Below, piece by piece: positions 4,012 through 60,180 of a stretch of 64,000 nucleotides of DNA. Position 1 is the stretch's first letter, and every line of letters begins with the position of its first letter. The DNA is from Rugalucina vietnamica (taxonomy: Eukaryota > Mollusca > Bivalvia > Lucinida > Lucinidae). The notes beneath the pieces are model-generated. The model saw only the letters and a list, made by a program, of their open reading frames with translations. It was not told the origin of the DNA and searched no databases. The translations under genes were made by a program, and so were the position numbers. Location: NCBI GenBank assembly GCA_964017185.1, contig OZ024874.1, positions 49,380,856-49,444,855 of the forward strand. Direction: 5' to 3'.

Positions 4012-4428
4012 AATGATTCATTGACTAGTTAGAGATTCGCAACGAGGACCGAACAACTAACTAAATGTTGTGAACCACTGCGGAGGATGAGGGTGAGGTT
4101 AGGGCCCTGTAAAATCGATTTAAGCCCCCAGTAATTTTATATCACTGATCGTTCCAAGGCGATACTTCTGTTGTGGTTCTATTTGTTTTCTTTTATGTTT
4201 TGGAGTCAAATTTTTGTGCTGTTTGACCTTATGTGCGTTTTCGTAGTTTAAATTACGTTCATGTAACTGAGTGACCGCCTATTAGGTAAACGCTGCACAC
4301 TCGGGCTTCGATAAGTTTTCTAAGTATATAAGTACCTAAGTGTTAATTTAGTTTTTCACACCTCGGTTTTTGGAGTGGGAATTTCTTATCGCGCCTTTTC
4401 CTAATCATTGTCTACCTGTACTTTTTTA
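4012..4428 (+). repeat. Naiad 3'-tail fragment (5'-truncated, old)
   Basis: Diverged copy of the sequence that follows the reverse transcriptase ORF in the copies at 28.4-28.97 and 46.4-46.89 kb. It runs from the GACTAGTTAGAGATTC word through TTTTTGGAGTGGGAATTTC to the terminal CCTGTACTTTTTT. It is the most diverged tail in the window. Confidence 0.85.
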
Positions 4429-22277: not shown

Positions 22278-22427
22278 CCCAGCGGGCATATGACGTCAGA
22301 TCGACGTCGATGCGACGTCATGACGACGTCGCATCGACGTCGATCTGACGTCATTCTGACGTCATATGCGTCATGACGTCGCATCGACGTCGATCTGACG
22401 TCATTCTGACGTCATATGCCTGCTGGG
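22278..22427. mobile_element. 150-bp inverted-repeat element packed with GACGTC
   Basis: The ends CCCAGCGGGCATATGACGTC and GACGTCATATGCCTGCTGGG are inverted repeats with one mismatch. About eleven GACGTC palindromes lie between them, in a 40-50-bp direct repeat (CATGACGTCGCATCGACGTC). Several sites match the CREB/ATF core TGACGTCA. Confidence 0.8.
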
Positions 22428-27700: not shown

Positions 27701-28342
27701 GTTTATCCATCTGAACTACAGTTGAACAAAGCCAATATCTCGGATACCGAAGCCCCCTTTTTCGATCTACATCTTTCTGTTGCAAATGGATTTGTTTCTT
27801 CTAAAATTTATGATAAGCGCGATGACTTTGATTTTGATATAGTAAATTTTCCGTTTTTGGATGGTGACGTTCCTCGTCGTGCTTCTTATGGTGTATACAT
27901 TTCGCAACTTATTAGGTTTCCTAGAGTCTGCAATCATGTTACAGACTTCAACGCTTGAAATAAATCTTTAACGGCCAAACTTCTCCAACAGGGCTATCGG
28001 TATCATAAACTTCGAAAAACCTTTTCTAATTTTTATCGTAGACACTATGAATTGATTTCCAAATATAATGTTGGGTTAAAGACGCTTTTAAGTGAGGGTC
28101 TTTCGGAACCAGAATTTTATGGTGACTTGGTTTACAAATTTAAGAAACTTATAGGAAGTAATGATTTTTCTTTTCAGTTTAGAAAAATCATAACACGTTA
28201 CAGACGTATAGGTTATAACTTGAATGTTATGCGACAGTCTGCATGCTTAGTTTTTAACCCAATCACGGTTGATAACTATGCTGCCTTTTTTAATTGCACG
28301 CCGGTGGGTCGGGCGTCAGACTCTATGATGGCCCCGACTTAA
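27701..28342 (+). pseudogene. Naiad reverse transcriptase, C-terminal part (copy A)
   Basis: Continuous frame from YPSELQLNKANISDTEAPFF through YDKRDDFDFDIVNFPFLDGD and YGVYISQLIRF to the terminal VGRASDSMMAPT. It encodes only the part after the catalytic core. The single internal stop, TGA at 27956-27958, corresponds to CGA (Arg) in the 55-kb copy, so it is a plain CpG transition and not a selenocysteine codon. The 27.7-kb frame carries no base deletion at the T-run that frameshifts the 55-kb copy. Confidence 0.85.
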
Positions 28343-28400
28343 AGCTATTCATTTTAGTTGGTTGGGGCCGGAGCTTCTTGTCTGTTGCTTGGCCCACCGG
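28301..28400 (+). promoter_or_regulatory. SECIS-type element at the Naiad ORF end (copy A)
   Basis: Helix I: CCGGTGGG pairs with CCCACCGG, continued by GGCGTCAGAC against GTCTGTTGCT with G-U pairs and one mismatch. The internal loop is followed by ATGA (28325-28328) opposite GGA (28370-28372), the non-Watson-Crick quartet pattern. Helix II: GGCCCCGAC pairs with GTTGGGGCC. Twelve nucleotides after ATGA comes the unpaired AA of the apical loop (28341-28342). This is the eukaryotic SECIS plan. The ORF stop TAA (28340-28342) lies in the apical loop. Confidence 0.8.
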
Positions 28401-29705
28401 GGTCCAACTGATGTTTTTCTTTAGCTCCGGAGTTAGTAAGTTATTTGGCGCCCAGGGATCTCCATCGTCGGGCAGCTTACTGAATCTGTGAGTCCTGGCT
28501 TTTGATTCATCAGGATGTTTATCATGATTTATTTGTTTGTTCTTGATGATTCATTTACTAGTTAGAGATTCACCACGAGGACCGAAGAACTAACTAAATG
28601 TTATGAACCACTGCAGAAGCTGAGGGTGAGGTTACGGTCGTGTAAAATCGATTTAAACCCGCCAGTGACTTTGTGTTACTGATCGTTCCAAGTCGGTACT
28701 TCTGTGGTGGTTCTTTTTGTTTTATGTCTTGGTGTTTGAAATATTTTTGTTCTGTTGGCGCCTTATGTGTGTTTGCATATTTTAGTTAAGTTAAGGTAAC
28801 TGAGTGGCCACCTATTGGGAAAATAGCTGCTAATTCGGCTTACGAAATGTTTTCATGGTATAAGTACCTGATTGTTGGTTTGGTTTTTCCCACCTTGGTT
28901 TTTGGAGTGGGGGTCTTTTTCTGATTGCGCCTTTTCCTGATCTTTGCCTACTTGTACTTTTTTTCAAACTGGATGAAAAAATCATTCCTAGGACAACAGA
29001 TAAGAATGCTAAAAATCTATAGGTTTTACAGCCCAGCAATGTCATTTTATCAGGCTTCTTGTATAATATACGCATCGTCATTCAGAATACATGATGCATG
29101 GATAACTCTCTTATCAAGTGCAGCTGAAAACCTCATAACGGGAAATATGACGTTTATCATCTGACTGTTCCATTCGGTAATACGGAGTTGCTCAAAATGA
29201 TCTTATATTATTTAAACTTTACAGACTGTTGCTGAGTAAGGGCGATTGTTGAATAATGGACGATAAGAATGAGTACCGATATTGTGTGGGAAAAATAAGT
29301 TTATACTGGTTGCACGACATACTTGATTTCAAAAAGTGTCAAAGTAGATCAGGAATATATAGAGTGCCTGTACAACAAAGAAGCTAAATTGAAATGATGC
29401 TTGTAGGCATGGTACGATTTTGCTGTCACTTAATATGCATTGCCACAAAACAACAGGATTGTACATTTATATTTAACACTCTAGGAGACCGAATGCAATG
29501 CCGCGTATACTAAAACTAATAAGGAAAGGAAGTTGGCTTGGCGATTAGTAAAATTAGCAGGATGTCTTCCACCAAATCAATGACTCTGCTAATGACAGAT
29601 TAAATTACATAGAATCAAATCCCTTGTTAAAGTGCTTGTCTTCCCACGACAGAAATTGTCCAGTACCCGGTATTTGCATGAAAAACAGACTCAATGGAAT
29701 ATGTT

Positions 29706-45945: not shown

Positions 45946-45951
45946 AACTTC

Positions 45952-46299
45952 TATCGGTATCATAAACTTCGAAAAACCTTTTCTAAATTTTATCGTAGAC
46001 ACTATGAATTGATTTCCAAATATAATGTTGGGTTAAAGACACTTTTAAGTGAGGGCCTTTCGGAACCTGAATTTTATGGTGACTTGGTTTACAAATTAAA
46101 GAAACTTAAAGGAATAAATGATTTTTCTCTTCAGTTCGGAAAAATCATATCACGTTACAGACGTATAGGTTATAACTTGAATGTTATGCGACAGTCTGCA
46201 TGCTTAGTTTTTAACCCAATCATGGTTGATAACTATGCTGCCTTCTTTAATTGCACGCCGGTGGGTCGGGCGTCAGACTCTATGATGGCCCCGACTTAA
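45952..46299 (+). pseudogene. Naiad reverse transcriptase, last ~115 codons (copy B)
   Basis: Open frame YRYHKLRKTFSKFYRRHYEL to VGRASDSMMAPT with no internal stop. Only the C-terminal extension after the thumb is present, so it cannot act. It shares over 90% of residues with copies A and C. Confidence 0.85.
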
Positions 46300-46357
46300 A
46301 GCTATTCATTTTAGTTGGTTGGGGCCGGAACTTCTTGTCTGTTGCTTGGCCCACCGG
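46258..46357 (+). promoter_or_regulatory. SECIS-type element at the Naiad ORF end (copy B)
   Basis: Same stem-loop as at 28301-28400, with one change, G to A just after the GGA side of the quartet. ATGA is at 46282-46285, and both helices are intact. Confidence 0.8.
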
Positions 46358-46892
46358 GGTCCAACTGGTGTTTTTCTTTTGCTCCGGAGTTAGTAGGGCA
46401 GCTTACTCAATCTGTGAGTCCTGGTTTTTGATTCATCAGGATGTTTATCATGATTTATGTGTTTGTTCTTGATGATTCATTGACTAGTTAGAGATTCACC
46501 ACGAGGACCGAAGAACTAACTAAATGTTGTGAACCACTGCAGAAGCTGAGGGTGAGGTTAGGTACCTGTAAAACCGGTTTAAGCCCGCCAGTAACTTTGT
46601 GTTACTGATCGTTCCAAGTCGATACTTCTGTAGTGGTTCTTTTTGTTTTATGTCTTGGTGTTTAAATTTTTTTGTGCTGTTGGCGCCTTATGTATGTTTT
46701 CATATTTTTAGTTAAGTTAAGGTAACTGAGTGGCCACCTATTGGGAAAATAGCTGCTCATTCGGCTTACGATATGTTTCATGGTATAAGTACCTGATTGT
46801 TAGTTTGGTTTTTTCCCACCTCGGTTTTTGGAGTGGGAATCTTTTTCTGATTGCGCCTTTTCCTGATCTTTGCCTACTTGTACCTTTTCTTC

Positions 46893-49800
46893 TTTTGATT
46901 TGGTTATTAAGCCAGTTTTATCTAATACTAGTAGTTTAGGTTGTCATAACGTTTATATTAAACCATAACCTGTATATAATGAACCTCGTGGTTTCGTTCA
47001 AACAGGGGTACGTTCTAAGGTTATTTCCGTCCTTTTCTATCAACTTAACAGTTTCATTTCGAAAAAGTACATGTATATGAGGGAGCATGGTTTAAAAATG
47101 GTATCATGAAAAAAAAATCAAATTACAAAAAGTCTGCGAGATGTGTTGCCACTCACTAATGTTTATGATCTGTTAGCCACGGTTTTATCCAGATCTTGCA
47201 TCCGCACGCTTTTCCCTCGCCAGAAATTCGATAATTTGATTTATTTTGTCATATTGTTCTTGATTTTTTTTCCACCAGAGTTGCAGATATACTCTAAGTT
47301 TTTTATAAGGTCATGACAATGTCATAAACGGCCTTGATAGATAGTCTGCACCGACTAAAGTCATCCCACAGCGAAAATCAATGACATAAAATAGGAATTA
47401 TTCCGGCTACCAGACTCTATAATCTGCCAGACTTCGCTTAATTAATTCTCGTTTCTCTTATTTGAGCCCAAAATGATGATGCAATGAATACGATGATTGT
47501 CCTGGGATGGAATGGTATTACGGTCAGATGGCCTGAAGACATTAAATGTCCAAATGAGTATTAAGAATCGGACGAAGGATGTACTGAAGTGCGCAGGCAG
47601 GCAAATGAGAATGTATGCTATTTCATCTACACATTGTAGCTAAAATATAGTTCACGCCCATTATGTATGAGCAGTGGAAGGTAGGTAAGCTTAAAAAGGC
47701 AGGTGAAGGGAAATAGAAGGGAAATATAGGGAAAGTGAAGGTACTACCATGTATGGTAGTGGCAAGCAGGACTTGCAGGGAAAACAAGAAGAGAGAAGTT
47801 ATAAACACTATAAAATAGTCGGCTATGAAGAAAACGTTGTAGGTATCCAGATTTAATTATAACCTACCAATAGCAAAGTGAATTTCTTCAATGACAGTGA
47901 AACTGCTGACCTGAAAGAGCATGTTCAGGTAAAATTTGGCGAGTTTAGAAGTCCGAGTGGGTATGCTGCATTATATTCTAAAGAATAAGGCTAGTACTTA
48001 ATGCAAAAAAGACATGACTACGAACTCTGGTTTTACAGTCTTCAAGACCGAAACGGGTAATTACTCAGCATAAGGCACGATTAACAAAAATGTATGCAAT
48101 TGAAATCTAGAGAACCGGAATGAAACGGAGACAATAGAATCGATCTGAAATATGAATAGTCGGCTAAAAAAACTAATATTATATTGCGCACACCTAACAT
48201 AAAGGATATGAATTATACATGTAACAACGAAAAAAAACAAACGGATAACTATGCCATACCGTAAAAAGAAATGGACAACAAGATTGAATGTGGGCACGGA
48301 TAATGACTTATACCAATACTTTTCAAAATTGTCAAAAGGAAATTTTGAAGCATTTGTGTTCGACTATTTCTGAATTTTTTGAAGGACGTAAATTGTCAGG
48401 AGAAGGAATGTTAAAGTGAAAGAATCACAGAAATCATCCTTGTCCAGCGGGCTGCGACCAAATGTGTTGTTTTGCATAAAATGCGCGTACATGTTAAAAA
48501 TATTGAATATCTTAATGCAATTAATTTGGCTTTTTCATACATTGTACCTAGCAAAATACATAAGATAATCATCTAAAATGTGATGCATGTCACGCTTGAA
48601 AGAAGACAAACCATTGAAGTACTTCCGTTTCAATTTTTATTCTTTATTTTTCACTATTTATCAAGGAACACAGAACCAAAATTGACCTTTAACACGTATT
48701 TGGTGTGCAATAAATGAAAGTTGAGAACTCTTTTGGTGCCATATACTGTTCTGTATTGTATTTGCATGATGCAAAGTTCCAAAATGATAAGTGTTTTGTA
48801 TAGAAAGTCTTAGCAATGAGATCCGTTTCTTAGAATTCTACCATAAAGCACGAGCTTAGTACAAATAGTTTCCGTTCCAACTGTATTAGGAAATTTGCGT
48901 TAGTCAGGGTTTATTCTTTTCTTTTCACTGTCCTTTTGTAGAGTATGTGAAATGTATATTATGGTCTTAATTAAGTGCTATATTTATTGAACGAGGATTC
49001 CTAACAGCCCGAATGCCACTAGTAGGTCTCCTATTATAATATTTCAAGATCTTTGGTCGTAAGTAAGGAAAGGAATGTCTTTCTTTTAGCTTTAATGTTC
49101 TTCTAAGCACTTGCATAAGTCAAATTCATTTAGGAGGTTTGATCTACACACTGGGCTAATGGACTTCTAACGTATATCGAGTTATGCGGTAGCTGATAGC
49201 AACAAATCTTAAAGTAGCATTATATCTTCCTTAGTTTCGTTAATTCAAGGCTATATTGCTGTATGAGATCACGGGTTCAGACGGAATGATAAACATTGCT
49301 CAATACGATGAGGCACCGCGCACTCACGTGCGACAATTCACGAAGGCTTATGCTTTGATGGTTGAAATCGTGTCCGAAAAATGAGATTTTCATTCACAAT
49401 CTTCTTGTACATGTATCAGGTTATTCGAAACGACTGATGGATGGAGAAGTGCATTTCCTGAAATCATATGATCTCATGTCCTCATTGTGAGTTCATATTT
49501 GGGGACAATAGTCTATGTTACCCTATACCTTGAGCTTACATCGTTACCAAGACGTATCATCGTGCGGAGTTCGTTTTTCATACACAAAAATGCAAAAACC
49601 ATATTTTCAGTTGTTGTAAATAGCGGGAAGCATCTTCTATTAAACTCAAAATGGGGGGGGGGGGGTCGCTTAATCTGAACAATGAATGATTATACAGTGT
49701 TTGAAAATCCAAAGACAAGTTTATTTCTTGATGAGCTCAACTCAATGAATGGTGATGAGTGGATAAAACAATACTTCAAAGGTATTAACTTTAATACAGC

Positions 49801-49946
49801 CGTTAATGAGAAGACCGCTATTTGCTTTCTCAGCATAGGAAAATATTCTCTTTCTAGAGGTTTGGGTCTCTATATAAGCAAATAGTTATGCAAATGAGCA
49901 AATAAAAACGAAGATCAACTGTGTAGTGTAGATTCATGTAAGTGTA
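46893..49946. other. 3-kb non-coding stretch, nothing recognised
   Basis: No repeat family of this window and no convincing frame. A 67-codon ORF (49682-49885) and short open pieces (e.g. 47880-47985) lack recognisable domains. A poly-G run lies near 49652-49666. Confidence 0.35.
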
Positions 49947-50236
49947 ATGTGTTACTGATCGTTTCAAGTCGATACTTCTGTGGTGGTTCTTTTTGTTTTA
50001 TGTCTTGGTGTTTAAAATATTTTTGTGCTGTTGGCGCCTTATGTATGTTTGCATATTTTTAGTTAAGTTAAGGTAACTGAGTGGCCACCTATTGGGAAAA
50101 TAGCTGCTCATTCGGCTTACGAAATGTTTTCATGGTATAAGTACCTGAGTGTTAGTTTGGTTTTTTCCCACCTTGGTTTTTGGAGTAGGAGTCTTTTTCT
50201 GATTGCGCCTTTTCCTGATCTTTGCCTACTTGTACT
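49947..50236 (+). repeat. Naiad 3'-tail fragment directly upstream of the long copy
   Basis: From GTGTTACTGATCGTTTCAAG to CTACTTGTACTTATTTATA. Same strand as, and within about 400 bp of, the first coding sequence of the long Naiad copy, so it may be the upstream pseudo-LTR of a tandem insertion. Confidence 0.85.
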
Positions 50237-50261
50237 TATTTATATCAGAGTTCTTGTGGTT

Positions 50262-50305
50262 GTGCCGTGTGGCGGCCCTAAAAAGTCTCCCCGTACATCC
50301 ATTTA
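50262..50305 (-). repeat. Fragment of the ~400-bp dispersed repeat
   Basis: TGCCGTGTGGCGGCCCTAAA followed by AAGTCTCCCCGTACATCC matches the end of the repeat at 30640-31055 in reverse. Confidence 0.65.
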
Positions 50306-51014
50306 ATGCTCTTATTTTTCCAATCCTCAGGGATTGCTTGCAATCAGTTTGTATTTTCCTATCTCTAAGTACCACAACTCTTCGATACCGTATTGAAGGT
50401 CATTAGTTGACCGTCACTCGTATCTCGTTGTATAAGCGATTCTTACGTTTCTATCCATAGACTTGTATTAGACATGGACCTGAGATGTGGGCTTCGGTTA
50501 TACCTTGTTCTTTCATTTGAGAGATTTTGCATTACGATTAAGTGCATTATTTTTTCTATAACCGGTATGAGTGTCGCGCTTCTTTTGGCAGTATCAACAC
50601 AGAACTCCCAACTATGACTATCACAAAAAGATTAGGAATTACATTAACTCCCCTTAGGTTGCATGCCGCGTCTACTGTACGGATTCCTCATTCAACTAAC
50701 AATTTTTAAAATTTATTGCCTACTGTTAGGGTGACACCTCTTAATTTATTTTCGGCATCTACAGTACTGTTAATCTACACGGAGCTTCTAATTCTAATAT
50801 GTTTCGTTATAATCTTCAGATAAGATTATCTCCACTTAAATCACCAATTTTACATAAATATATTAATCCGTTCAAGAGACCTGGAATGTACCCTAGTATT
50901 TCTAAGTGCAATGCCAAGAAGTGCAACTGTTGCAATCATTTATGCTCTAAGACTACTGTCACTTCATCTGTGAATGGTAGGACATTTTCAGTGGTTAATG
51001 ATTCTGATTTAGAC

Positions 51015-51017
51015 TGA
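51015..51017 (+). other. In-frame TGA, candidate Sec codon (weaker)
   Basis: Sits between NDSDLD and KSMDLVYVL in an otherwise open frame. Related Penelope endonucleases often have Cys (sometimes another residue) before KS, so the assignment is possible, not secure. Confidence 0.45.
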
Positions 51018-51047
51018 AAATCAATGGATCTTGTATATGTTCTTACT

Positions 51048-51050
51048 TGA
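51048..51050 (+). other. In-frame TGA at an endonuclease cysteine, candidate Sec codon
   Basis: Reads DLVYVLT-(TGA)-NTNSCMMQYVGQT. The expected residue is the first Cys of the pair preceding the YIG half, and the frame is intact on both sides. Confidence 0.65.
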
Positions 51051-51292
51051 AATACAAACAGTTGTATGATGCAGTATGTTGGACAAACTTGTCGAACTTT
51101 GCAAAAACGATTTGGTGAGCACTATCGTAGAATCAGAAAGCCCAAAAATAATGATACCTTTCTGTACCAGCATTTTAAGCGCACTGGTCATTCTCCCAAT
51201 AATGTTTTAGTTCAACCAGTGGAAAAAATCTCATATGATGAAAATTCTTCTGTTAGATTCCAAAACATCAAACGATTTGAAACTGAACTTAA

Positions 51293-52235
51293 GGATGTTC
51301 GCTGCTAACATTTGACATTTCGGAACTTCCGGTTTTTCTTTTCTTGAATATCTCGTAAACGGTTGCAGATATTTTCCTAATATTTTATATTTGGATACAT
51401 ATTGATAATATGCATCGAATTAGCCATGGAAATTGCCAATCTAAGAAACTTCATTTTTTCATCCCATTTTCTGCAACTTTTCATAAAATTTTAGTTGTCA
51501 GTAAAATTTAGGGGGTAGGGTAGATTGAACTTGAATATTACACATCTTTAAATTAATTGCACTAGTTCGATGTTTATTTTAGCAGCAGTATATGTGTACA
51601 TGGTCTTCTAAGTCATTCTTTGTGTCTTTGGTGTGCTGGTTTTAAAATTTAAGGTGGTTTTATGAAATGGGCTTTTAGAAACAAAACAGCCGAAAAAAGG
51701 CCGAAAATGGCGATTTTCAAGTTGTTGGTTCTCTCTTATATGCTCACTACCCTATATATTTCTTTCTTTTATTCGTACAATATTACCAAGTTCTATGTTG
51801 TGTGAAAATACAAGAAAAAGTTTGAATCAACAAATATGTGTTTGGTACATTTCAAAATATCGATTTTTTCCGACTTTTCAATTATAGGGGTAGGGTTAGA
51901 AAAGGAATCGTAAAATTTTGTCATCCACTCCAAGTTGCAAATTTGTCTATGCTTTTGGTCCAAAATTGTCTGCGCTACGTAAATATTATGACTTTTGAAA
52001 GCATTCTAGGTGTATTTTTGTTCAAGACAGGTATGTTTCAAAGAATTATAAATTAAATTAAATTTACCAAATTTAAAACATGGTGCTCAGAGGTCTCATT
52101 CAGAGGCCTGTAGCTTGAAAAAATGCACACTACCCTGTATTCATTTTGTTTTCAAATGTCTTGTGTTGTATTTTGGAATCAAAAAAGAAAGGTTAGAAAA
52201 ACGTTTGAATACTTTTTCATTGGCAGCGAACATCC
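51293..52235. mobile_element. 943-bp TTAA-flanked DNA transposon nested in the Naiad endonuclease
   Basis: Ends GGATGTTCGCTGCTAA and TTGGCAGCGAACATCC are inverted repeats with one mismatch. TTAA stands on both sides (51289-51292 and 52236-52239). Taking out the element and one TTAA joins the frames ...FETELK and WIKLFQTPFPLGFND..., which together make the expected end of the endonuclease. TTAA targets are used by piggyBac and Kolobok transposons. No transposase frame is present, so this is a non-autonomous element. Confidence 0.9.
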
Positions 52236-53262
52236 TTAAATGGATAAAATTATTTCAAACTCCCTTTCCACTGGGATTTAACGACAACATTTACCATGAG
52301 GGAAATATTTCCAAAATGCCCGATTTTGATGTACTTACACTTTCAGAGTCTCGTAAACGTAAATCTAGATCTCATGGTATACGGAAAAAGGGTAATGACA
52401 AACGTAAACGGTGCGCTACAATGAAATTGTACACTTCCCTTAATGATTTAGCTGTTAAACTCAGGATTCACGGTCGACATCCAATGCTGTCTTATCTTAG
52501 TTCTCTACCTATTTCTGTATTACGTTCCTTGGACACAGAGGCTAATAGATTTTACGATATAAATCATCAAATGTATGACACTGCACTGTTAACAAGATGT
52601 TATACTCAGCATGCTTTTGTCCATTTATCGATTCCGAATCTAATCACATTAGAAGTTTTATTAAAATTCCTTTAATTAATAAAGGAATTGACTTTTATTA
52701 TTGATTTACCAAGCATATTCCTGGATAAATCAGTGATACAGTCTATACCTACGTACTTCCAAAATTCAGAACCTCCTATTATTTGTTACAAATATAATAA
52801 ACCAATCAGAAATACTAATTTTAATTTCAATAAACTTGTTTCTGATCTTGATATCCATGCTAATACTCCTAAGTCTTGAGATTGTAAAGATTCAAAATTT
52901 GTTTATCAACCAGCCGGACATATAGTTACTGGAAATTTAAATAATAATTTCGGATTCTAGAATTCGCAAAATTGTTTCTAAAGGTCCGAAATATAGATTC
53001 CCCTCCTACATCAATTTCGATAAATGTAGAGAGGAGATTGCATCTGCATTGAATGATTTCGGTAATCGATGGTGTAAACGAGAGGGTGTTGAGGATAATG
53101 CTCTTAAAGAATGGAAAAGAAGTATCTTCACTATCGTAGTATCTTCACTATCGTGGATAAATGTATACAGTTTTATTCACAAAATAATAATCTTTTACCT
53201 CCTAAACCTAAATCGTCATATAGGCATTTGAAGCAGGGTATCCAAGAATTTCACAGAACATC
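52236..53262 (+). pseudogene. Naiad endonuclease end, CxC linker and RT N-terminus (first copy)
   Basis: Starts with the end of the endonuclease (WIKLFQTPFPLGFNDNIYHE), then a basic stretch SRKRKSRSHGIRKKGNDKRK, then LYTSLNDLAVKLRIHGRHPM, all in one frame to 52675. A frameshift near 52640 and another near 52695 bring in DLPSIFLDKSVIQSIP and EPPIICYKYNKPIR. The linker motif reads TPKS-(TGA)-DCKDSKFVYQPAGHIVTG (TGA at 52877), that is Sec/stop-x-Cys in place of the CxC signature. A further shift at a T/A-rich run precedes KGPKYRFPSYINFDKC and the start of the fingers region. Inactive because of frameshifts. Confidence 0.75.
52877..52879 (+). other. In-frame TGA replacing the first Cys of the CxC motif, candidate Sec codon
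   Basis: NTPKS-(TGA)-DCKDSKF: the CxC signature of Naiad linkers with its first Cys encoded by TGA. The frame is intact for over 60 codons upstream and about 25 downstream. The codon is preserved in the duplicate at 53905-53907. Confidence 0.75.
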
Positions 53263-54290
53263 CTTAAATGGATAAAATTATTGCAAACTCCCTTTCCACT
53301 GGGATTTAACGACAACATTTACCATGAGGGAAATATTTCCAAAATGCCCGATTTTGATGTACTTACACTTTCAGAGTCTCGTAAACGTAAATCTAGATCT
53401 CATGGTATACGGAAAAAGGGTAATGACAAACGTAAACGGTGCGCTACAATGAAATTGTACACTTCCCTTAATGATTTAGCTGTTAAACTCAGGATTCACG
53501 GTCGACATCCAATGCTGTCTTATCTTAGTTCTCTACCTATTTCTGTATTACGTTCCTTGGACACAGAGGCTAATAGATTTTACGATAGAAATCATCAAAT
53601 GTATGACGCTGCACTGTTAACAAGATGTTATACTCAGCATGCTTTTGTCCATTTATCGATTCCGAATCTAATCACATTAGAAGTTTTATTAAAATTCCTT
53701 TAATTAATAAAGGAATTGACTTTTATTATTGATTTACCAAGCATATTCCTGGATAAATCAGTGATACAGTCTATACCTACGTACTTCCAAAATTCAGAAC
53801 CTCCTATTATTTGTTACAAATATAATAAACCAATCAGAAATACTAATTTTAATTTCAATAAACTTGTTTCTGATCTTGATATCCATGCTAATACTCCTAA
53901 GTCTTGAGATTGTAAAGATTCAAAATTTGTTTATCAACCAGCCGGACATATAGTTACTGGAAATTTAAATAATAATTTCGGATTCTAGAATTCGCAAAAT
54001 TGTTTCTAAAGGTCCGAAATATAGATTCCCCTCCTACATCAATTTCGATAAATGTAGAGAGGAGATTGCATCTGCATTGAATGATTTCGGTAATCGATGG
54101 TGTAAACGAGAGGGTGTTGAGGATAATGCTCTTAAAGAATGGAAAAGAAGTATCTTCACTATCGTAGTATCTTCACTATCGTGGATAAATGTATACAGTT
54201 TTATTCACAAAATAATAATCTTTTACCTCCTAAACCTAAATCGTCATATAGGCATTTGAAGCAGGGTATCCAAGAATTTCACAGAAAGTA
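53263..54290 (+). pseudogene. Duplicate of the Naiad linker and RT N-terminus (second copy)
   Basis: Same content and same frameshifts as 52236-53262, so the lesions pre-date the duplication. It begins at QTPFPLGFNDNIYHE in frame and leads directly into the RT body at 54290. Its CxC-position TGA is at 53905-53907. Confidence 0.75.
53905..53907 (+). other. In-frame TGA, duplicate of the CxC Sec candidate
   Basis: Identical context to 52877-52879. Confidence 0.7.
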
Positions 54291-55853
54291 TGTTTGGTTC
54301 CGGCAGACAAAGCCGCAAACAATGTTGTTGTTGTTTGTAGGCTTCACTACGTTAACACCTTAAAACAGGAGCTGGATGGTACCAGGGCTTATCTGGAGAC
54401 AGATACTGATGAGGTGTCTGTAGTAAATGCCCACTTAAACGATTTACCTGTTAAGTTTTCTGTTTGAGTCAATGAAGGCCAAGACAAACTTCCTACGATG
54501 TATTGGTTACCTAAGCTTCACAAAAGACCATTCAAAGCAAGATTTATTGCAAATTCTAGCTCTTTTACTACTACTGAACTTTCTAAATTATTAACTTCCT
54601 GTCTTACTGCTATCAAATCTCATGTTATAAGATACTGTGAGACAGTGTATGAAACTTCAAATAAAAATTGGTTTTGGTCAATTAAAAATTCTGGTGATGT
54701 GCTCAATAAATTGAAGTGTAGAGGGTTCCGTGCGACGAGCTTGTCCACATATGATTTTTCTACTCTGTATACAACTTTACCACATAATCTAATTAAAGAA
54801 AAACTTCTGGATTTGATAGAGTGGACCTTCAAAAGGGCATTAAAAACTATGGTTCACTTTACTTGGCATGTAATGACAGAAAGGCTTTTTTCACATCCTC
54901 TGACCAAAGTCGGTATACACTTTGGTCATGTCAGAATGTGTGCGACGCCTTATCCTATCTCCTGGATAATATTTATATTACAATTTGGGACCAAGTTATA
55001 CAGACAAATTGTTGGAATTCCGATGGGTACAAATTGCGCACCTCTCGTAGCTGATTTATTTTTATACTGCTACGAAAGAGATTTCATGGATTCTCTTAAC
55101 CATGATAATCAAGCTGATGTTATCGAGGCTTTTAATTCCACTTCTAGGTACCTCGATGACCTTTTGAACATTGACAACCCTTATTTTGAGGGTATGGTCA
55201 ATCAAATTTATCCATCTGAACTACAGTTGAACAAAGCCAATATCTCGGATACCGAAGCCCCCTTTTTAGATCTACATCTTTCTGTTGCAAATGGATTTGT
55301 TTCTTCTAAAATTTATGATAAGCGCGATGACTTTGATTTTGATATAGTAAATTTTCCGTTTTTGGATGGTGACGGTCCTCGTCGTGCTTCTTATGGTGTA
55401 TACATTTCGCAACTTATTAGGTTTGCTAGAGTCTGCAATCATGTTACAGACTTCAACGCTCGAAATAAATCTTTAACGGCCAAACTTCTCCAACAGGGCT
55501 ATCGGTATCAAAAACTTCGAAAAACCTTTTCTAAATTTTATCGTAGACACTATGAATTGATTTCCAAATGTAATGTTGGGTTAAAGACGCTTTTAAGTGA
55601 GGGTCTTTCGGAACCAGAATTTTATGGTGACTTGGCTTACAAATTTAAGAAACTTACAGGAAGTAATGATTTTTTCTTTTCAGCTTAGAAAAATCATAAC
55701 ACGTTACAAACGTATAGGTTATAACTTGAATGTTATGCGACAGTCTGCATGCTTAGTTTTTAACCCAGTCACGGTTGATAACTATGCTGCCTTCTTTAAT
55801 TGCACGCCGGTGGGTCGGGCGTCAGACTCTATGATGGCCCCGACTTAAAGCTA
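54285..55853 (+). pseudogene. Naiad reverse transcriptase body (copy C)
   Basis: After a 1-base deletion near 54297 the frame reads VPADKAANNVVVVC (fingers), NTLKQELDG, a TGA at 54465, YWLPKLHKRPFKARFIANSS (RT motif), LSTYDFSTLYTTLP (motif A, catalytic Asp), GIPMGTNCAPLVADL (motif B) and YLDDLLNIDNPYF (motif C, catalytic Asp-Asp). Two compensating shifts (~54835 and ~54990) move LYLACNDRKAFFTS and CQNVCDALSYLLDNIYI to another frame. An extra T in the T-run at 55669-55675 causes a premature stop at 55688. The last 40 codons to VGRASDSMMAPT are in the next frame. Most catalytic residues are visible but the copy is dead. Confidence 0.85.
54465..54467 (+). other. In-frame TGA in the RT, candidate Sec codon (weaker)
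   Basis: Reads DLPVKFSV-(TGA)-VNEGQDKLPTMYW with intact frame on both sides. I cannot say that relatives have Cys here, so ordinary decay is possible. Confidence 0.4.
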
Positions 55854-55904
55854 TTCATTTTAGTTGGTTGGGGCCGGAGCTTCTTGTCTGTTGCTTGGCA
55901 CCGG
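55807..55904 (+). promoter_or_regulatory. SECIS-type element at the Naiad ORF end (copy C)
   Basis: Same stem-loop as in copies A and B, ATGA at 55831-55834. A 2-base deletion in the 3' strand of helix I (GGCACCGG for GGCCCACCGG) weakens the lower stem. The upper stem and quartet are intact. Confidence 0.8.
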
Positions 55905-56288
55905 GGTCCAACTGATGTTTTTCTTTAGCTCCGGAGTTAGTAAGTTATTTGGCGCCCAGGGATCTCCATCGTCGGGCAGCTTACTGAATCTGTGAGTCCT
56001 GGTTTTTGATTCATCAGGATGTTTATCATGATTTATTTGTTTGGTCTTGATGATTCATTTACTAGTTAGAGATTCACCACGAGGACCGAAGAACTAACTA
56101 AATGTTATGAACCACTGCAGAAGCTGAGGGTGAGGTTACGGCCGTGTAAAATCGATTTAAACCCGCCAGTAACTTTGTGTTACTGATCGTTCCAAGTCGA
56201 TACTTCTGTGGTGGTTCTTTTTGTTTTATGTCTTGGTGTTAAAAATATTTTTGTGCTGTTGGCGCCTTATGTATGTTTGCATTTTTTA
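55905..56288 (+). repeat. Naiad copy C tail, 3'-truncated
   Basis: Tail sequence up to TATGTATGTTTGCATTTTTT, where it is cut by the hairpin end of the next element. The terminal ~200 bp of the tail are missing. Confidence 0.85.
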
Positions 56289-59200
56289 GCTCACCTGAGC
56301 CGAAGGCTCACAAGGTGAGCTTATAGGATGGCCATGATCCGGCGTCCGTCCGTCGTCCGTCGTCCGTCCGTCGTCGTCGTCGTCGTCCACAATTTCAAAG
56401 ATCTTCTTCTCTGAAACCACTTGGCCAATCTAGTTGAAATTTTATGTGGAGCCTCCTTGGGTAGTGGCATTGTAATTTTGTTCGTGATATCTTGGTCACA
56501 TGACCAAGATGGCTGCCACGCCCATATATGGTAAAAACCACTCAAAAATCTTCTTCTCCAGAACCGGTGGGCCGATCTTCACGAAACTTAGTATGTGGCA
56601 TCGGGGACTTCAGCCCATCATAGTTTGATAAAATGATGACCATAGGATGACCTTGACCTATTTTACGGCAAGGTCAATTTTGGAAACATAGGCTTTTACA
56701 TGGGAAAAAGTGAAAACTATGGATTTTTTGAAATCTATTGCAGCCTGAGGCCTGAAAAGTGGGAGATGCAAACAACTAATGGAGTAGATGAAGGTATGTG
56801 ATTAATTAAGGTCAAGGTCATCTCTTGACCTTGGCCAGTCTGTCGTCCAGACACACTTTTCAAAGATCTTCTTCTCTGAAACTGCTGGGCCAATCAAGTT
56901 GAAATTTTATGTGGAACATCCATGGGTAGGGGAGACGAAAGTTTGATCGCAAAATCGAGGTCACATGACCAACATCGCCGCCACGCCCATATATGGTGAA
57001 AACTACTAAAAAATCTTCTTCTCCAGAACCGGTGGGCTGATTTCCACGAAACTTGGTATGTAGCATCGGGGACTTCAGCCCATCATGGTTTGATAAAATG
57101 ATCACCATAGGATGACCTTGACCTGTTTTACGGCAAGGTCAATTTTGGAAACATAGGCTTTTACATGGGAAAAAGTGAAAACTATGGATTTTTTGAAAAC
57201 TATTGCAGCCTGAGGCCTGAAAAGTGGTAGATGCAAACAACTGATGGAGTAGATGAAGGTATGTGATTAATTTAGGTCAAGGTCATCTCTTGACCTTGGC
57301 CAGTCTGTCATCCATACACACTTTTCAAAGATCTTCTTTTCTGAAACTACTGGGCCAATCAAATTGAAATTTTATGTGGAGCATCCATGGGTAGGGGAGA
57401 TGGAAGTTTGATCGCAAAATCCAGGTCACATGACCAAGATGGCCGCCATGCCCATATATGGTAAAAACTACTAAAAAATCTTCTTCTCCAGAACCGGTGA
57501 GCCGATTTCCACGAAACTTGGTATGTTGCATCAGGGACTTCAGCCCATTATAGTTTGATAAAATGATGACCATAGGATGACCTTGACCTATTTTACGGCA
57601 AGGTCAATTTTGGAAACATAGGCTTTTACATGGGAAAAAGTGAAAACTATGGATTTTTTGAAAACTATTGCAGCCTGAGGCCTGAAAAGTGGTAGATGCA
57701 AACAACTAATGGAGTAGATGAAGGTATGTGATTAATTTAGGTCAAGGTCATCTCTTGACCTTGGCCAGTCTGTCGTCCATACACACTTTTCAAAGATCTT
57801 TTTCTCTGAAACTGCTCGGCCAATCAAGTTGAAATTTTATGTGGAGCATCCATGGGTAGGGGAGACGAAAGTTTGATCGCAAAATCTAGGTCACATGACC
57901 AAGATGGCCGCCACACCCATATATGGTAAAAACTACTCAAAAATCATCTTCTCCAGAACCGGTGGGCCGATTTCCACGAAACTTAGTATGTAGCATCGGG
58001 GACTTCAGCCCATCATAGTTTGATAAAAAGATGACCATAGGATGACCTTGACCTATTTTACGGCAAGGTCAATTTTGGAAACATAGGCTTTTACATTGGA
58101 AAAAGTGAAAACTATGGATTTTTAGCTCACCTGAGCCGAAGGCTCACAAGTTGAGCTTATAGGATGGCCATGATCCGGCATCCGTCCGTCGTCGTCTTCG
58201 TCGTCCACAATTTCAAAGATCTTCTTCTTGGCCGATCTAGTTGAAATTTTATGTGGAGCCTCCTTGGGTAGTGGCATTGTACTTTTGTTCGTGATATCTT
58301 GGTCACATGACCAAGATGGCCGCCACACCCATATATGGTAAAAACACTTCAAAATTCTTCTTCTCCAGAACCAGTAGGCCGATCTCACTAAACTTGGTAT
58401 GTAGCATCGGGGACTCCAGCCCATCATAGTTTGATAAAATGATGACCCTGGGATCACCTTGACCTATTTTACAGAAAGGTCAAATTTGGAAACATAGGCT
58501 TTCACATGGGAAAATGTGAAAACGATGGATATGTTGGAAAATGTTGCAGCCTGAGACTTTAAAGATGCTAGATGCAGACAACTGATAGAGTCAATGAAGG
58601 TATGTAATTAATTAAGGTCAAGGCCATTTCTTGACCTTGAGCCAAGGTCATTGAAATATAAAAATTAAGATTATGGTTTTCTCAGAAACCGTTGGCCGAT
58701 CTAGTTGAAAGTTTATATGGAGCCTCCTTGGGAAGTGGCTTTCAAATTTTATTTGCAATACATGGTCACATGACCATGATGGCCGCCACGCCCATATATG
58801 GTAAAAACACTTCAAAAATCTTCTTCTCCAGAATCTTTGGGCCGATTTCCACTAAACTGTGTATGTAGCAACGGGGACTCCAGCCCATCATAGTTAAAAC
58901 TTTGATAAAATGATGACCCTAGGATGACCTTGACCTATTTTACGGAAAGGTCAAATTAGGTAACATAGGTTGTCACATGGGAAAATGTGAAAACAATGGA
59001 TATGTTGGAAAATGTTGCAGCCTGAGACTTGAAAGATGCTAGATGCAGACAACTGATAGAGTCAATGAAGGTATGTAATTAATTAAGGTCAAGTTCATTT
59101 CTTGACCTTGAGCCAAGGTCATTTAAATATCAAAATTGAATTTATGGTTTTCTCAGAAACAGCTTGGCTGATCTAGTTGAAATTTCATATGGAGCCTCCT

Positions 59201-60180
59201 TGGGAAATGGCTTCTTAATTTTATTTGCAATATCTTGGTCACATGACCAAGATGGCCGCCACGCCCATATATGGTAAAAACACTTCAAAAATCTTCTTCT
59301 CCAGAACCGGTGGGTCGATTTCCACTAAACTTAGTATGTAGCAATGGGGACTCCAGCTTATCATAGTTTGATAAAATGATGACCCTGGGATCACCTTGAC
59401 CCATTTTACGGAAAGGTCAAATTTCGAAACATAGGCTTTTTACATGGGAAAATGTGAAAACAATGGATATGTTTGGAAAATGTTGCAGCCTGAGACTTGA
59501 AAGATGCTAGATGCAGAGAACTGATAGAGTCAATGAAGATATGTAATTGATTTAGGTCAGGTCAAGGTCATTTCTTGACCTTGAGCCTTGAGCCAAGGTC
59601 ATTCAAATATCAAAATTAAGATTATGGTTTTCTCAAAAACCGCTTGGCTGATCAAGTTGAACTTTTATATGGAGCCTCCTAGGGTAGTGGCTTTCAAATT
59701 GCAATATCTTGGTTACATGACCAAGATGGCAGCCACACCCATATATGGTAAAAACCCTTAAAATTATCTTTTTCTCTAGAACTGGTGGGCTGATTTCCAC
59801 AAAACTTGGTATGTAGCATTGGGGACTCCAGCCCATCATAGTGTGATAAAATGATGACCTTGGGATGACCATAGAATATTTTACGGCAAGGTAAATTTTG
59901 GAAACATTTGCTTTTACGTCACAAAGCCCACATGTATACTCGCATATGCTTAAAAATTCTCAGGAACTGATTGGCCCATTTTCTGGAAATTTGTTTTGTA
60001 GCATTTGGAACTACAGCCTATCACAATCTATCATAATTTGAACAAATTGTGGCCTACATCTATTTTACGACAAGGTCACTTTTGGATAACTAGGTTTTAA
60101 TGTACGTAAAAATGAAAACAATGAATTTTTTAAGTCTATTATAAAAATAATGCTTAACATCTAGATCTCAAGTGAGCCTT
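56289..60180 (+). mobile_element. HINE-like element: terminal hairpin, (CGTC)n, ~465-bp tandem monomers
   Basis: Starts with the hairpin AGCTCACCTGAGCCGAAGGC..AAGGTGAGCT, then GTCC/GTCG microsatellite (56340-56388), then monomers in which TTTCAAAGATCTTCTTCTCTG recurs near 56394, 56860, 57324 and 57789 (465 bp apart). Every monomer contains TCACATGACCAAGATGGC, CCCATATATGGTAAAAAC and TTCTTCTCCAGAACC. A second hairpin start with its own microsatellite lies at 58122, so two elements are nested or tandem. Later monomers (58.6-60.2 kb) diverge gradually. The ORFs here are translated monomer fragments. Confidence 0.75.

Follow-up and report, generated by a model that had tools for sequence, protein, structure and literature searches.

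A decayed Penelope-like element in Rugalucina vietnamica appears to descend from a Naiad-type family that encodes a selenoprotein

Members of the Naiad clade of Penelope-like elements, as Craig et al. described them in 2021 in Molecular Biology and Evolution (MBE), are said to contain several selenocysteine (Sec) codons in some clams and spiders. Here we describe an element of this type in a 64-kb stretch of the genome of the lucinid bivalve Rugalucina vietnamica (contig OZ024874.1, positions 49,380,856 to 49,444,855 of the forward strand; hereafter the window, in whose own numbering positions are given). A Penelope-like element occupies about 49948-56289 of the + strand. We are highly confident that it is a decayed copy from a young, very abundant Naiad-type family that encodes one protein, a selenoprotein of about 1077 residues. 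The label Naiad-type refers here to the order of the domains, a CxC (cysteine-any residue-cysteine) linker, a mark of the clade, and a telomerase-related reverse transcriptase (RT). Likeness to the Naiad clade extends to a GIY-YIG endonuclease upstream of the RT, the CxC linker, an invertebrate host and a high copy number. The present family has three putative Sec codons that could be followed from copy to copy, and its selenocysteine insertion sequence (SECIS) straddles the stop codon. Sec-coding Naiads are thus reportedly a known kind of element, while the SECIS over the stop codon and the 5712 genomic copies of a SECIS half may be new. No paper joining Penelope-like elements and selenocysteine was found in the literature searched, which excluded the 2021 Naiad paper.

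Other described systems share some of these features. Like eukaryotic selenoprotein genes, the family has conserved in-frame TGA codons, cysteine (Cys) in homologues, a downstream SECIS and a host tRNA-Sec; unlike the usual gene of this kind, its SECIS overlaps the stop codon and does not lie wholly in the 3' untranslated region (UTR). Selenoproteins are usually few and mostly encoded by single-copy host genes. According to a review (PMC8310308), the glutathione peroxidase of fowlpox virus has the SECIS in its coding sequence, 3' of the Sec codon, whereas all cellular counterparts have it in the 3' UTR. That protein is an enzyme which the virus captured from a host; the present case is a retrotransposon with three Sec codons, in which the stop codon is itself part of the SECIS. 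Cysteine-type Naiad-like elements (for example P0253, P0259 and P0264) share the domain order and the Cys columns, with Cys in place of TGA. Pseudo-long terminal repeats (pLTRs) and a telomerase-related RT are common to this element and canonical Penelope-like elements. The latter carry hammerhead ribozymes in their pLTRs (PMC7761336), where the window has only a weak twister-like motif.

Conserved TGA codons and their cysteine counterparts

An earlier note on this DNA had proposed four TGA Sec codons, at 51015, 51048, 52877 (duplicated at 53905) and 54465. All of these triplets are present, and the first three (hereafter sites 1, 2 and 3) are conserved in the host genome (1.09 Gb, 47 contigs). 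Thirty-eight genome copies were compared. They came from a search with the element's middle part that listed 40 best matches (40 of 1920 candidates scored), two of these matches being the window itself. Sites 1 and 2 were each TGA in 20/20 copies holding the codon (the piece carrying them is present in 23 copies, three of which stop short of the codons), and site 3 was TGA in 37/38. In contrast, the fourth codon is TGT in 36 of the 37 copies holding the piece and TAT in the other, in a column that is variable in relatives; the family therefore has no Sec codon here, and 54465 was ruled out as private to the window copy. The note had also attributed every TAA and TAG within the coding parts to frameshifts, which fails at 50707, an in-frame nonsense TAA that is CAA in 16/17 copies holding the piece and gapped in one.

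Sequence patterns with exact flanks and the codon left open extended the comparison genome-wide for sites 1 and 3. The site 3 context occurred at 1033 places (reversed-pattern control, 0), and 97 of the 100 listed, all on contig C1, had TGA, with no TAA or TAG. The site 1 context occurred at 556 places (control, 0), with TGA in 99 of the 100 listed, on contigs C1 and C2. The expectation that genomic copies would have TGA, and not TAA, TAG, TGT or TGC, at the proposed codons is thus borne out at sites 1-3, and genome-wide at sites 1 and 3, and not at 54465. On C1 the sites also recur three in a row at spacings of 4223 bp (83952215-83960661) and 4228 bp (28935478-28943934); these places, about 4.2 kb apart, are whole elements in head-to-tail arrays.

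Three of the 38 copies retain a 1101-codon frame that is open but for exactly the three TGAs and then ends at TAA. When the 37 other copies were compared with the frame of one of these, L040 (34,136 codon cells), stops affected more than one-fifth of copies at just three internal positions, codons 133, 144 and 437 (TGA in 19/19, 19/19 and 36/37), and the TGA pattern is therefore beyond chance. Remaining nonsense came to 12 TAA, 6 TAG and 4 TGA, and the final TAA was kept in 33/33. In the same comparison, substitutions at third positions numbered 557, against 300 and 168 at the other two, and codons with a single substitution were synonymous in 525 cases and non-synonymous in 500, a count made without a null model. 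A clear excess of non-synonymous changes is expected where selection is absent. The two pLTRs of L040 are identical over at least 355 bp; the family has therefore moved recently.

Distant relatives have Cys where the family has TGA. Twenty full-length cysteine-type relatives, chosen from 120 listed, all have Cys at the positions equivalent to sites 1, 2 and 3, numbered C126, C137 and C435 in P0259. The correspondence at site 2 is by spacing: it lies 11 residues after site 1, the same distance as from C126 to C137. The note had placed 51048 and 52877 at family Cys positions, the latter as the first Cys of the CxC linker; both assignments hold, and 51015, which it had missed, also falls on a family Cys. 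The linker reads U-D-C at site 3, and C435 and C437 are invariant in the 20 relatives, as are C90, C95, C98, C140 and two residues of the RT, C572 and C652. The cluster of Cys around the endonuclease suggests a predicted metal site. Across 76 aligned database rows, site 1 was C in 30, W in 2, N in 1 and a gap in 43; site 3 was C in 63, W in 6, a gap in 2 and five single other residues, which seem to stem from unrelated fused proteins or from misalignment. In a tblastn comparison with the window, the stretches counted gave C 28, W 12 and one gap at site 1; at site 3 there were 66 with C, 8 with W, five gaps and six other residues. Database ORFs (open reading frames) also favour the selenoprotein reading: of 52 that extend to site 3, 34 stop at the residue before it, 6 continue through it with Trp (tryptophan) and 12 end elsewhere. 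Of 120 listed proteins, 66 begin at the first Met (methionine) after site 2, which shows only that there is some stop upstream of that Met.

The domains are those of a permuted Penelope-like element, as the note had proposed. PF01541 (GIY-YIG) matched 50745-51305 with 27.9 bits (cut-off 22.6), upstream of the RT and on the same strand, and 5564 database proteins matched the RT part (54468-55688) at E<=1e-5. Cysteine-type relatives carry endonuclease and RT together in one ORF; in P0264 both domains lie in a single ORF, each slightly below its curated cut-off. The RT was assessed as telomerase-related on relative P0259, whose predicted structure (mean predicted local distance difference test score 80.2) had as its best Protein Data Bank (PDB) match the telomerase 6zdq (E 1.4e-11, template modelling scores 0.32/0.45), as expected for Penelope-like elements. 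A PDB sequence search with P0264 led nowhere.

The SECIS, the stop codon and the host machinery

The SECIS-shaped hairpin reported at the end of the ORF was confirmed by a match to Rfam SECIS_1 (39 bits, cut-off 35; Table 1), and the region 55800-55920 folds with -53.4 kcal/mol (z -4.29). At E<=5 the window held just two other SECIS matches, in the corresponding positions of the second and third copies of the element, and the three scored 38.9-39 bits. Eight further genome copies, of the 38, were scanned; the SECIS was matched in all eight and exceeded the cut-off in five. A TAG at 55686 was rejected as the end of the ORF, which lies at the TAA inside the SECIS (55846-55848), a codon kept in 34/34 copies holding it (35 have the piece). 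Since the SECIS covers this TAA, the last residues of the protein, a conserved SDSMMAPT present in all three window copies, are encoded by the 5' arm of the hairpin. The AUGA quartet of the SECIS is spelled within the two Met codons, and the UAA stop codon provides A bases of the apical loop, which ties the C-terminus of the protein, the stop codon and the SECIS to one another. The same tail was seen in relatives: in 53 fetched sequences the C-terminus is MM followed by three residues, and with a looser pattern (59 C-termini) the second of these codons starts with A in 58 (M 53, T 4, I 1), the remaining one having V. No SM[MTI] tail was found in the 69 listed proteins that lack Trp at site 3 and whose linker is readable, against 2/6 proteins with Trp there, the other four of which end elsewhere.

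Exact copies of the 29-nt stretch that forms the 5' half of the SECIS number 5712 genome-wide (2836 + 2876; control, 0). A genome-wide SECIS_1 scan, which gives a biased view in that 150 of 42,234 candidates were scored, reported 16 matches. The C-terminus of the family's RT lies upstream in 15, and the sixteenth (L057) is a closely similar SECIS without an RT match; the overlap of MM.. and stop codon in the RT frame was present in 14/16. All 16 appear to belong to this Penelope-like family. For the tRNA, 2 of 24 tRNA-Sec matches in the host genome were above the cut-off (79 and 71.2 bits), as were 5 of 14 prokaryote controls. ARAGORN called both loci tRNA-SeC with anticodon TCA.

Competing explanations and a possible mechanism

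We favour the selenoprotein reading because TGA stands at Cys columns in a frame that is otherwise open, with a SECIS at the ORF end and a tRNA-Sec(UCA) in the host. An ordinary decayed Penelope-like element, with random nonsense mutations some of which fell in Cys codons, would need only one step from TGT or TGC to TGA, and the window copy, plainly a pseudogene, does carry such a private TGA at 54465. That account is extremely unlikely, however, given that sites 1-3 are TGA in 20/20, 20/20 and 37/38 copies, that no further internal codon has stops in more than one-fifth of them, and that the open frames carry exactly three TGAs. It is also conceivable that each UGA acts as a genuine stop, so that the element encodes separate small proteins and the SECIS is a relic or has another role. 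Some termination at UGA is expected anyway, and ORFs of 286 residues between sites 2 and 3 recur in databases. Eleven proteins selected for being about 286 residues long, with 66-82% identity to the first of them, all extend from the first Met after site 2 to the residue before site 3. Sites 1 and 2, however, are 11 codons apart beside the GIY-YIG core, where true stops would cut the endonuclease; the cysteine-type relatives are single ORFs, and the third-position excess runs across the entire frame. We give split proteins next to no probability.

Reading of the UGAs as Trp, Arg or Cys, through read-through or reassignment without selenium, is very unlikely. Database ORFs of close families that pass the sites do carry Trp (12/12 at site 1, 13/13 at site 2 and 6/6 at site 3), as this alternative would have it. 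Distant relatives, on the other hand, have Cys, the usual counterpart of Sec; SECIS matches stand at the ORF end, and the genome contains a tRNA-Sec. Moreover, Trp at the Sec columns (P0121, P0122, P0242 and others) would most simply be TGA translated with genetic code 4 by a gene caller, and the genomic DNA examined here has TGA; such entries probably hide selenoproteins.

Several observations weigh against the selenoprotein reading, in which Sec insertion at the three UGAs is what we infer from sequence. Copies within one genome are not independent, and both the exact-flank patterns and the choice of the 38 copies by best match favour young copies. TGA has exceptions: TGG at site 3 in one of the 38 copies and, among the 100 places listed for each site, two TGT and one TCA at site 3 and one TAA at site 1. 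At site 2 the correspondence to Cys is by spacing; alignment programs open a gap there in the cysteine-type relatives, as the window carries two extra residues ahead of the next Cys. Three of the eight copies scanned for the SECIS fall under the Rfam cut-off (33.6, 30.6 and 27.0 bits), one of them with an open frame (L031). Five further relatives stop at SD or LD, directly ahead of the Met, and in one more the tail is different. Diverged families were seen at the protein level only. Taken with the evidence above, descent from a permuted Penelope-like family that encodes a selenoprotein, as the earlier note had suggested, is supported, with three putative Sec codons instead of four.

If the protein is a selenoprotein, host Sec machinery, recruited by the family SECIS, would decode UGA codons 133, 144 and 437 (L040 numbering) as Sec, and decoding of all three would yield the full-length endonuclease and RT. 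Ribosomes halting at a UGA would yield fragments only, so production of full-length enzyme, and with it retrotransposition, should depend on selenium supply. The terminating ribosome would sit on the SECIS, with possible feedback on UGA decoding. A selenium-gated selfish element of this kind, with three Sec insertions and feedback through a stop-fused SECIS, is a tentative proposal that we consider rather doubtful; in it, the thousands of SECIS copies around the genome could draw on the supply of SECIS-binding proteins or give rise to new SECIS elements in host 3' UTRs. Selenium supply is a testable limit on transposition. This mobile element appears dependent on Sec recoding at three sites and is present in thousands of copies, partial or whole. 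It provides a natural experiment on the exchange of Sec and Cys at likely metal-binding Cys, and its SECIS doubles as coding sequence and stop codon. The family also carries a warning for annotation, in that a standard gene caller cuts the protein at every UGA.

Layout of the window copy and accompanying observations

The element is larger than the 50590..56288 originally assigned to it, as it is bounded by 112-bp terminal direct repeats at 49948-50059 and 56176-56287 (Table 1). The window copy is plainly a pseudogene, with frameshifts, an insertion resembling a miniature inverted-repeat transposable element (MITE), a duplication, the TAA at 50707 and the private TGA at 54465. From its TTAA flanks we take the insertion to be piggyBac-like. 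The tandem duplication (52228-53255 and 53256-54283, 3 mismatches in 1028 bp) is later than the insertion, since it carries the insertion's right end. Relatives P0121 and P0122, with which the N-terminal part of the ORF was compared, start with MTITN...

Table 1. Coordinates of features of the element and its further copies in the window.
Feature	Position	Strand	Basis
5' pLTR (unit about 300 bp)	49948..50247	+	112-bp repeat with 56176-56287; unit recurs in window
ORF N-terminal part, Cys-rich and then GIY-YIG endonuclease; with frameshift and a nonsense TAA (50707)	50616..51287	+	PF01541
Putative Sec codon 1 (TGA)	51015..51017	+	TGA in copies; Cys in relatives
Putative Sec codon 2 (TGA)	51048..51050	+	TGA in copies; Cys by spacing
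MITE-like insertion, TTAA flanks, inverted ends AAGGATGTTCGCTGC; splits ORF	51288..52244		Ends read; relatives continuous across
ORF middle (endonuclease end, connector, CxC linker), tandem copy 1	52245..53255	+	Tandem duplication
Putative Sec codon 3 (TGA) of CxC linker, read U-D-C	52877..52879	+	TGA in copies; Cys in relatives
ORF middle, tandem copy 2, with duplicate of putative Sec codon at 53905-53907	53256..54283	+	Tandem duplication
RT part of ORF, frameshifted, YLDD motif	54284..55845	+	Protein matches; relative's model like telomerase RT
Private TGA, not a family Sec codon	54465..54467	+	TGT 36, TAT 1 of 37 copies
SECIS element over ORF end and stop codon	55823..55890	+	SECIS_1 match; fold
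True stop codon TAA, within SECIS	55846..55848	+	TAA in copies; ORF tail ..SDSMMAPT
RNA-like conserved motif at pLTR start, weak twister-P1 match	56154..56217	+	23.3 bits, cut-off 67.2; 9 window copies aligned
3' pLTR, truncated by another repeat	56176..56289	+	112-bp repeat
Second copy, only 3' part, SECIS 28317-28384	27702..28963	+	Window comparison
Third copy, only 3' part, SECIS 46274-46341	45951..46883	+	Window comparison

Hammerhead ribozymes are common in the pLTRs of Penelope-like elements, without being taken as universal; none was matched in the window at E<=5, nor in 49500-57000 at E<=10. The twister-P1-like motif at the pLTR start gave E 0.0052 in a 201-base search and 1.7 in the whole window, its 5' half and loop fitting the model and the 3' core being absent. 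It was also found in L040 at 39-102 and 4255-4318 and in 7 of the 8 genome copies scanned (E 1.2-1.8), constant and far under the cut-off, and one stem pair covaries in 3 of the 9 window copies.

Scans for relatives of the element in viral contigs and in plasmids led nowhere; of the genome contig scans, one gave none and another a single locus (L001). This locus (1-124) is a 124-bp piece of a Naiad-like RT on a contig of a Candidatus Thiodiazotropha metagenome-assembled genome (MAG). Protein relatives likewise include entries named from clam-symbiont MAGs and from pearl oyster; P0029 and P0031, named from such MAGs, are, like the L001 piece, probably clam contamination.

Beyond the truncated 3' pLTR, tandem arrays with units of 465 and 471 bp occupy 56393-59915. 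Elsewhere in the window, a GACGTC-rich, palindrome-like stretch at 22289-22405 raises chance microRNA matches on both strands.

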